Assembly: GCF_002310495.1 (NCBI RefSeq)
Contig: NZ_CP023344.1
Location: 496,001 to 560,000, forward strand
Source of the DNA: Nibricoccus aquaticus
GTDB taxonomy: Bacteria; Verrucomicrobiota; Verrucomicrobiia; Opitutales; Opitutaceae
Length of the DNA: 64,000 nucleotides
Direction of reading: 5' to 3'
A program made the translations under genes and the position numbers. The notes beneath the pieces were generated by a model. It saw only the letters and a program-made list of their open reading frames with translations, had not been told where the DNA came from and made no database searches. The number at the start of each line of letters is the position of its first letter. Position 1 is the first letter of the stretch. Shown in pieces: positions 41,527 to 43,155 of this stretch.

Positions 41527-42165
41527 ATGATTTTCCTTCGCAGCATCGAGCGGCTGAGTGGCGAACCCGAAGGCTATACCAACACTCCGTTCGCAATTCC
41601 CCGGCTCGTCGCCCTTCGCAGCCTTACCCTCAGTTCGCCCGTTACTTTTCTCGCAGGAGAAACAAGCGCGAGCCGCTCCACCCTCCTGGCCGCCATCGCC
41701 ATTCGTGCCAAGCTTCCCACCCCGGCCGATCTCCCGCCCGAGCACGAGCCTTCTCTCGCCGCCAGCCATAAACTCGCGCGCAATCTGAATCTCCACTGGT
41801 CGCCAAAGACCCACTACGGCGTCTTCCTCCGTTCCTGCGATCTCCACTGCCACGACGGCGAAGCCTGCCTCGAAATGCTCCGCAGCCGCTGCGTTCCCGG
41901 CGGACTTCACCTGATCGACACCCCGGAATGCATTTTCCCTCCCCAGCATCAGCTTGCTCTTCTAGCACTCCTGAAATCCCTCGTTAGCGGCAACGCCCAG
42001 TTCATCATCGCCACCAATTCCCCGATCCTGCTCGCCTTCCCCGACGCCCAGATCCTCGACTTCGACGCCCCAGAAATCACCCCGCGCACCTACGACGAAG
42101 TCCCCGTAGTGAAATTCATGCGCGCCTTCCTCGCCGACCCCGAAGACCACATTCGCAAACTCTGA
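41527..42165 (+). CDS. Degenerate AAA-type (ABC-like) ATPase, probably inactive
   Basis: The 212-residue protein follows the plan of the small single-gene ATPases with SLPAI, GENGSGKST, HGESF and DEPEAALSPQRQ motifs. Here, however, the Walker A position reads GETSASRST (residues 44-52): both loop Gly and the Lys are lost. The Walker B/D-loop position reads LIDTPECIFPPQHQLALL, with DTPE in place of DEPE. The FIIATNSPILLAFP segment (usually ATHSP) also has Asn for the His. The reading frame is intact. It may be a pseudo-ATPase or a decaying gene. It lies about 130 bases before dapF on the same strand. Confidence 0.75.
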   Translation: MIFLRSIERLSGEPEGYTNTPFAIPRLVALRSLTLSSPVTFLAGETSASRSTLLAAIAIRAKLPTPADLPPEHEPSLAASHKLARNLNLHWSPKTHYGVFLRSCDLHCHDGEACLEMLRSRCVPGGLHLIDTPECIFPPQHQLALLALLKSLVSGNAQFIIATNSPILLAFPDAQILDFDAPEITPRTYDEVPVVKFMRAFLADPEDHIRKL

Positions 42166-42294: not shown

Positions 42295-43155
42295 ATGCGC
42301 TTCTACAAGTATCACGCCCTCGGCAACGACTACATCGTGCTCAATCCCGCCGATTTTCCCCAATGGAAATCCGCCCCCACGCTCGACCAGATCCGCGTCG
42401 TCTGCCACCGCAACTTCGGCGTCGGCTCCGACGGCATCCTCTGGGGCCCGCTTCCGTCGCAGAAAGCCGACTTCGGCCTGCGCATCTTCAATCCCGATGG
42501 CTCCGAAGCCGAGAAATCCGGCAACGGTCTCCGCATCTTCTCCCGCTATCTCTGGGACCAGAAGCTCGTTAAAAACCCCGACTTCACCATCGAAGTCCCC
42601 GGCGGCCTCGTCCGCTCCGTCATCCTCGACAACGGCCAGCTCATCAAAATCGCGATGGGCAACGTCTCCTTCGACAGCGCCAAAATCCCCGTCAACCTCA
42701 CCGGCCCCGCCCGCGAGGTCATCAACGAGAAAATCACCATCCTCGACCGCGAGTTCACCTACTGCGCCGCCACCATCGGCAATCCGCACTGCGTCCTCCC
42801 GCTCCCTGAGGTCACCTCCGAGCTCGCTCACAAATACGGCCCTCACCTCGAGGTTCACGCCAACTTCCCGCGCAAGACCAACGTCCAGTTCCTCCAGGTC
42901 CTCGACCGCGCCAACATCCGCATCGAGATCTGGGAACGCGGCGCCGGTTACACCCTCGCCTCCGGCAGCAGCTCCAGCGCAGCCGCCGCCGTCGCCCACC
43001 GCCTCGGCCTCGTCGATAAAGACATCACCGTCCACATGCCCGGCGGCAAAATCGGCATCGAGATCGGCGATAACTTCTCGATCATGATGACCGGCACCGT
43101 GAACAAAGTCGCCGAAGGCGACATGCACCCCGAACTCTTCGCCGTAAAAGTCTGA
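42295..43155 (+). CDS. dapF: DapF-family epimerase homologue lacking both catalytic cysteines
   Basis: The 286-residue protein has the DapF twin-domain fold signatures: KYHALGNDYIVLNP at the N-terminus, FGVGSDGILWG, RIFNPDGSEAEKSGNGLR, GNPHCVLPL and IWERGAGYTLASGSS. True diaminopimelate epimerases use two Cys, one in GNGxRC and one in ACGSG/ACGTG. Here these positions are Ile81 and Ser223, and the preceding CGNG Cys is also Ser75. It is therefore unlikely to work as a standard two-base DAP epimerase. It may be a paralogue with another role, possibly binding a related ligand. ATG 42295 is chosen at the conserved MRFYKYHALGN start. A terminator follows. Confidence 0.85.
   Translation: MRFYKYHALGNDYIVLNPADFPQWKSAPTLDQIRVVCHRNFGVGSDGILWGPLPSQKADFGLRIFNPDGSEAEKSGNGLRIFSRYLWDQKLVKNPDFTIEVPGGLVRSVILDNGQLIKIAMGNVSFDSAKIPVNLTGPAREVINEKITILDREFTYCAATIGNPHCVLPLPEVTSELAHKYGPHLEVHANFPRKTNVQFLQVLDRANIRIEIWERGAGYTLASGSSSSAAAAVAHRLGLVDKDITVHMPGGKIGIEIGDNFSIMMTGTVNKVAEGDMHPELFAVKV

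Follow-up and report, generated by a model that had tools for sequence, protein, structure and literature searches.

DapF enzymes, the DAP epimerases, work with two catalytic cysteines, the first of which precedes the GNG of the C-GNGxRC motif (Cys75 in Anabaena DapF; PMC12039745). As described there for the Anabaena complex, the backbone NH groups of Gly76, Asn77, Gly225 and Thr226 hold the proximal carboxylate of the ligand, Asn13 holds the proximal amine, and the distal centre is held by Asn66, Asn164, Asn197, Glu215 and Arg216. The same source gives a pKa of about 29 for the alpha carbon of amino acids; its deprotonation is already puzzling for a thiolate and should be far harder with serine. 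In the related enzyme PddB, Cys-to-Ser mutants are reported to keep less than 0.1% activity, with similar behaviour stated for Mt-DapF and others (PMC8225329); the activity of HisR Cys-to-Ser mutants is given as greatly reduced (PMC11602996). Natural departures from a Cys/Cys pair include an aspartate/glutamate racemase with a Cys/Thr pair (PMC8142540) and, in the proline racemase superfamily, a Ser93/Cys 4-hydroxyproline epimerase and a Ser/Thr 3-hydroxyproline dehydratase; in this superfamily a catalytic Ser is placed by a residue three positions on (PMC4113996). These superfamily members share with the protein described here a natural Ser for a catalytic Cys but belong to another family and act on other substrates, and, as far as described there, they do not have Ser on both faces. 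In the PVC superphylum, Chlamydia trachomatis DapF keeps both cysteines (C72, C207) and also racemises glutamate with PLP (PMC5885031). By title or abstract, no natural Ser/Ser DapF or Ser/Ser racemase was found in the open-licence literature among the matches listed.

We analysed a window of 64,000 nucleotides, meaning the whole stretch of DNA considered, from Nibricoccus aquaticus (Opitutaceae), whose genome is a single contig of 4,730,447 bases, listed as 100% complete. It encodes a DapF protein with serine at both catalytic positions. The open reading frame is real, running on the forward strand from the ATG at 42295 to a stop codon that ends at 43155. The features discussed below are as follows.

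42295..43155, + strand: dapF-like gene (286 aa) encoding a Ser/Ser DapF, the sole DapF match of the genome (TIGR00652, PF01678)
42514..42516, + strand: Lys74 codon AAA, adjoining Ser75, clade-typical and not invariant (92 Lys, 4 Ile and 1 Met in 97 Ser75 rows)
42517..42519, + strand: Ser75 codon TCC, replacing the first catalytic Cys (Anabaena Cys75, E. coli Cys73) by alignment
42535..42537, + strand: Ile81 codon, replacing the second, non-catalytic Cys of CGNGxRC (Ile in 97 of 97 Ser75 rows)
42961..42963, + strand: Ser223 codon TCC, replacing the second catalytic Cys (Anabaena Cys224, E. coli Cys217) by alignment
42970..42972, + strand: Ser226 codon AGC, covarying with Ser223 (Gly in 99 of 99 Cys223 rows read)

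The protein gives a full-length match to TIGR00652 (residues 1-277; 234.8 bits, cut-off 114.65) and 189 bits with PF01678 (Pfam cut-off 34.7), the only family matched in a Pfam scan at E 0.001. With the model for bifunctional DapF / glutamate racemase, NF038284, it scores 67.5 bits, short of the cut-off of 350. The nearest solved structures by sequence are the Pseudomonas, Anabaena and Arabidopsis DapF proteins. Its segment NPDGSEAEKSGNGLR departs from the PROSITE DapF signature, N-x-[DN]-[GS]-[SENGFT]-x(4)-C-[GI]-N-[GA]-x-R in the form given by PMC8225329, at the Cys alone. By alignment the residues that bind the two DAP centres are present, and the predicted model shows the two domains of the fold, with each catalytic position at the N-terminus of a helix; yet Ser75 and Ser223 occupy the places of the two catalytic cysteines. 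The protein is a DapF family member by descent and fold that lacks the cysteine pair by which the family is defined. A preliminary description of this DNA had noticed that neither catalytic cysteine is present, and had correctly assigned Ser223 to the catalytic position of ACGxG, where the motif reads ASGSS in place of the usual ACGTG. It had, however, taken Ile81 for the catalytic Cys of GNGxRC. The alignments put that residue at Ser75, within EKSGNGLRI, so both positions show Cys-to-Ser and neither shows Cys-to-Ile; with serine at both, a two-cysteine mechanism is indeed impossible.

An AlphaFold model based on a 41-row alignment (mean pLDDT 95.2, pTM 0.91) has helices 76-88 and 224-236 starting directly after Ser75 and Ser223. 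Its best structural match is Anabaena DapF (9mro; Z 38.2, rmsd 1.9 over 274 residues), followed by O-ureidoserine racemase (7vdy; Z 37.2) and Arabidopsis DapF (3ejx; Z 36.5). The H. influenzae C73S and C217S mutants (2q9h, 2q9j) match with Z 34.0 and 33.4, and proline racemase superfamily folds with Z about 24 to 28. Since the second-best match is a non-DAP racemase, the fold alone does not fix the substrate; 7vdy belongs to the same family by sequence, but it scores 110 bits where 14 of the 16 DapF sequences listed score 152 to 180, and it acts on a different substrate. With the Anabaena and Arabidopsis enzymes the window protein shares the fold, a Gly at the Gln44 site, the DAP ligands and the Glu before the catalytic loop, while it differs from them in Ser for both catalytic Cys, Ile for the second Cys of CGNGxRC, Ser226 for the Gly after ACGT and Lys74 for Met74. 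Other DapF proteins of the Verrucomicrobiota, including the GVPH type of families f49 and f57, fit the same family model and have the same expected role, but they are Cys/Cys, carry Gly226, mostly have Val at position 163 and fall in separate parts of the tree.

The Anabaena ligands listed above correspond to window residues 76, 77, 224, 225, 11, 66, 163, 196, 214 and 215. Asn66, Asn77, Asn163, His165, Asn196, Glu214, Arg215, Thr220 and Gly224 are each kept in 95 of 95 Ser/Ser rows, as is Asn11 in 93 (the remaining two being gaps) and Gly76 in 94 (the exception being Val76 in genome G291); position 225 holds Ser (87 rows) or Thr (8 rows). With the DAP-binding residues, those for the distal L-centre among them, preserved in almost every Ser/Ser row, a change of ligand is unlikely. 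Lys74 and Tyr219 are nearly fixed in the Ser/Ser enzymes and absent from the Cys/Cys enzymes read. Of the 96 Ser223 rows, 95 have Ser and 1 has Cys at position 226; the 99 Cys223 rows, the Ser/Cys enzyme included, all have Gly there, so that the 223/226 pair is Cys-Gly or Ser-Ser in 194 of 195 phylum rows. Kinship accounts for part of this pairing, as the Ser/Ser rows are one clade and not 96 independent events. In one Ser/Ser DapF (L127, G113:C29:57282-58220), some 35-40 inserted residues precede the catalytic loop.

The window enzyme is a real, clade-wide Ser/Ser DapF. Named contigs yielded 196 relatives; the best 80 were read, and every one of them is Ser/Ser. Their titles are mostly Opitutae, Opitutia, Opitutaceae and Opitutus, the rest being mainly Verrucomicrobia, with two Akkermansia and one 'bacterium', and they include Geminisphaera colitermitum TAV2 (L056), IMCC26134 (L067) and Lacunisphaera MAGs (L064, L079). 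The two Akkermansia muciniphila MAG contigs (L043, L054) encode Ser/Ser DapF proteins 79-80% identical to that of the window, and their titles are probably wrong. A set of 197 phylum rows (196 stretches plus the window protein, with the repeat loci L226 and L235 dropped) contains 98 Cys/Cys, 95 Ser/Ser, one Ser/Cys (L255, from genome G167) and three incomplete proteins. Being common to these 80 relatives and to 95 of the 197 rows, the Ser/Ser pair is not a product of chance or sequencing error. Further sampling covered 111 of the 134 matches of one phylum DapF search (our own included) and stretches from 64 further genomes of the order; 13 Verrucomicrobiota rows without the second column, left out of one alignment, were later read except L101.

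Among 90 genomes read in the window's order, 77 have only the Ser/Ser type, 10 only Cys/Cys and one (G189) both; in G169 the gene is split over two contigs with Ser in each half, and one genome is Ser/Cys. The 102 genomes read outside the order, which were partly chosen by score, comprise 84 Cys/Cys, 15 Ser/Ser, two with both types (G114, G448) and one incomplete. A Ser/Ser profile searched against 387 phylum genomes gave 82 matches of at least 353 bits, the next being at most 241 (matches to E 1e-60). From this search 20 stretches were read, picked by score rather than as a random sample: the 15 above the gap are all Ser/Ser and the 5 below it all Cys/Cys. The Ser/Ser type belongs to a large set of environmental bacteria, and in the majority of its carriers examined it is apparently the only copy. 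No DapF match at all was found in 18 of 135 order genomes of at least 90% completeness (e.g. G155, G170, G175, G181, G188); all six sampled f3 genomes of genus g104 are among them. A threshold of 1e-60 yielded no Ser/Ser-like match in four genomes of the window's own family (G324, G383, G389, G408; genera g131 and g132). Beyond the phylum, every match in the plasmid (115 records) and phage (26 records) collections was below 60% identity, and a scan of viral contigs for EAEKSGN or WERGAGY found no relative.

A quick maximum-likelihood tree was built from 97 of 110 phylum rows (longer than 200 aa), the window protein and three reference chains. In it, 28 Ser/Ser rows form one side of a single branch (SH-aLRT 100); E. 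coli is joined to this clade via a long branch, and the joining may be false. FastTree, which took in 193 of the 197 rows, places the 95 Ser/Ser rows together (support 96), with the Ser/Cys row as their sister on a long branch (support 94). This Ser/Cys DapF (L255), from a genome of 1.0 Mb, has Gly226 and is the sole mixed pair read. It is a possible evolutionary intermediate: a path from Cys/Cys through Ser/Cys to Ser/Ser would fit its sister position, which is itself unsure owing to the long branch. Among 108 Ser/Ser genes, a crude pairwise dN/dS has a median of 0.22 (4269 pairs with dS 0.1-1.5; range 0 to 0.77), and by this estimate the Ser/Ser enzymes are under purifying selection. Ser75 is kept across both serine codon boxes in these genes (TCN in 90, AGY in 18), and the Ser223 codon is TCN in all 108.

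The two types replace each other among related genomes. Families f49 (6 genomes) and f57 (5) of the order have a Cys/Cys DapF of the usual phylum type, nested with it in the tree, and the Ser/Ser gene was not seen in 10 of these 11 genomes, G189 holding both. The other families read in the order are Ser/Ser, or Ser/Cys in f61. Within family f20, G023 and G295 are Ser/Ser, and G092 (from the genus of G023) and G015 are Cys/Cys; within f27, G440 is Ser/Ser and G059 Cys/Cys. A second DapF match in G204, of 40 residues, was left unread in this tally. G023 has a single DapF match, and the presence of a second Ser/Ser genus in f20 makes bin contamination a less likely source of it. Such swaps are expected if both types do the same job, whereas the genomes with both types (G189, G114, G448) would also fit two jobs. 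The new ligand offered in the preliminary description as part of 'a new reaction or ligand' finds no support in the kept DAP-binding residues or in this interchange.

The genome of the window carries the surrounding pathway. DapL, for which the preliminary description had proposed a search, is present at 567 bits and LysA at 452. MurE scores 521 bits with TIGR01085 and 533 with the DAP-type model NF001126 (cut-off 373), against 297 with the Lys-ligase model (cut-off 536), and carries DNPRG, which we take as a mark of meso-DAP use. MurI (164 bits) has the ACNT and GCTHFP cysteines, presumably the catalytic ones; D-Glu thus need not come from the Ser/Ser DapF, and D-Glu supply was rejected as its purpose. 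A Ddh bypass and a second dapF were likewise rejected, as neither a Ddh match nor a further DapF match was found in the complete 4.73 Mb genome. DapL gives the genome a direct way to LL-DAP, after which an epimerase is needed unless an unrecognised enzyme supplies meso-DAP. Of the alternative route suggested earlier, DapL plus another epimerase, the DapL half is borne out; the searches turned up neither a second DapF nor a Ddh, and they leave room for another, so far unrecognised epimerase. The earlier view was to fall if no other dapF occurred and wall DAP was normal. The former is what we find; on the latter, the reports cited below describe DAP as present in some Opitutaceae, though in low amounts.

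This pathway is clear for the window's genome and not for each relative, the routes covered being DapL and Ddh. Across 29 genomes (24 Opitutales, G023, G079, G083, G114 and the Cys/Cys member G092), DapL is over its cut-off in 17, LysA in 15 (all 29 have at least a weak match) and Ddh in 3, all Opitutales. Matches below the cut-off for DapL and LysA are mainly in f2, f3, f5 and f6; for LysA they also occur in f4, two f1 genomes and f20, and for DapL in G080, f30 and G114. The three genomes with Ddh besides a Ser/Ser DapF (G018, G080, G096) are Opitutaceae, and G080 is without a plant-type DapL over the cut-off. Wall chemistry in the group is disputed. As reported in PMC5303756, three Lacunisphaera strains and O. 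terrae contain 3-7 nmol DAP against 63 nmol in E. coli, nearly tenfold less; TLC detected no DL-DAP in the three Lacunisphaera strains, ornithine was also found, DapF is listed among the DAP genes of Lacunisphaera IG16b, and DAP is described as absent in verrucomicrobial subdivision 4. Coraliomargarita is reported to be without DAP (PMC3035286).

The likeliest explanation appears to be an old reaction with new catalytic residues. The window protein would be a thiol-free DAP epimerase that uses a Ser/Ser acid-base pair to convert LL-DAP from DapL into meso-DAP for LysA and MurE, a reading to which we give a probability of about 0.57. As the apparent only copy in most of its carriers examined, the Ser/Ser enzyme probably does the usual DapF job. 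We infer catalysis, the roles of the two serines and of Ser226, and the stereochemistry as follows. The N-termini of helices 76-88 and 224-236 would flank the substrate, bound in the manner of other DapF proteins, with Ser75 on one face and Ser223 on the opposite face acting as base and acid for 1,1-proton transfer. The helix dipole and Ser226, which is Gly in the Cys enzymes, may orient Ser223 and make it more acidic; the spacing of Ser223 and Ser226 equals that of the catalytic Ser and its placing residue in the proline racemase superfamily. In favour of epimerase activity count the sole DapF, DapL, LysA and DAP-type MurE without Ddh in a complete genome, the kept ligands, the single clade, purifying selection, the 223/226 pairing, the Ser/Ser-Cys/Cys swaps, the MurI that can account for D-Glu and the confident model with Anabaena DapF as its best structural match, with the Ser93/Cys 4-hydroxyproline epimerase as precedent (PMC4113996). 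Against it stand the near-dead or greatly weakened Cys-to-Ser mutants (PMC8225329, PMC11602996), the lack of a Ser/Ser racemase among the papers listed, 7vdy as second-best fold match, the three genomes with both types, Ddh in 3 of 24 Opitutales, the 18 of 135 order genomes without DapF and the low DAP reported for Opitutaceae (PMC5303756).

Some of these observations would suit a protein that binds DAP without epimerising it and has a regulatory or other role, meso-DAP being made by an unrelated enzyme. Both thiols are lost, relatives mutated from Cys to Ser are reported to be nearly dead (PMC8225329), and three genomes hold both types. We nevertheless consider this unlikely, since the genome has no second DapF and no Ddh match, a Cys/Cys DapF takes the place of the Ser/Ser one in f49 and f57 with the reverse in part of f20, and the ligands of the proximal carboxylate and the distal centre are kept. 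It is distinctly unlikely that the protein is a DAP epimerase whose proton acceptors are Lys74, Tyr219, Cys166 or water rather than the two serines. Although Lys74 and Tyr219 are nearly fixed in the Ser/Ser enzymes and absent from the Cys/Cys enzymes read, Lys74 is replaced by Ile or Met in the five rows noted above, Tyr219 is Arg in 1 of 96 Ser223 rows, Cys166 is Ala or Val in some clade members, and the model puts Ser75 and Ser223 directly ahead of its two helices. As each of the three residues varies within the clade, all were rejected as the new catalyst.

The reported wall chemistry (a DAP content almost ten times lower than in E. coli, TLC without DL-DAP in Lacunisphaera, and ornithine; PMC5303756) raises the idea that the wall contains LL-DAP and needs little or no meso-DAP, with the enzyme a slow remnant feeding LysA only. 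That MurE fits the DAP-ligase model and carries DNPRG, that LysA is present and that the Ser/Ser genes are under purifying selection make this very unlikely. An elimination enzyme, a dehydratase or lyase acting on beta-substituted DAP in the manner of the 3-hydroxyproline dehydratases without one Cys, seems highly improbable, even with the Ser/Thr pair of such a dehydratase in the related superfamily (PMC4113996) as a parallel. It would leave the sole-copy status and the standing-in of Cys/Cys DapF unexplained, and the neighbourhood points to no such pathway: none of the eight window neighbours was matched near dapF in the 80 relatives (within flanks of at most 8 kb, some of them far shorter), which also gives no sign of a shared operon. 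Ten stretches from other genomes gave matches limited to dapF, frames overlapping dapF and one ABC-type gene.

A broader statement about the clade has slightly better than even odds in our judgement. The clade would have swapped the two-thiol catalysis of an essential cofactor-independent epimerase for a Ser/Ser acid-base pair, reached via a Ser/Cys step that persists in one reduced genome and stabilised by the second serine beside Ser223. It would be the first natural thiol-free racemase or epimerase of this fold within the library searched. Such a reading is remarkable given that engineered Cys-to-Ser mutants of a relative are reported to be less than 0.1% active (PMC8225329). A clade living on a Ser/Ser enzyme would reveal the surroundings that make serine work, and the lowering of the barrier would be directly testable, with natural Cys/Cys, Ser/Cys and Ser/Ser enzymes at hand for comparison. 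The question is also relevant to the dispute over the walls of verrucomicrobial subdivision 4 (PMC5303756). By inference, Ser/Ser enzymes should escape thiol-directed DapF inhibitors. For annotation, it matters that the family model passes Ser/Ser proteins as DapF well over its cut-off.

Just upstream of dapF, at 41527-42165 on the + strand, lies an open reading frame of 212 aa, for which Pfam gave no match at E 0.001. It has a broken Walker A (GETSASRST) and a Walker B (LHLIDTPE), and presumably resembles a small AAA/ABC-type ATPase.
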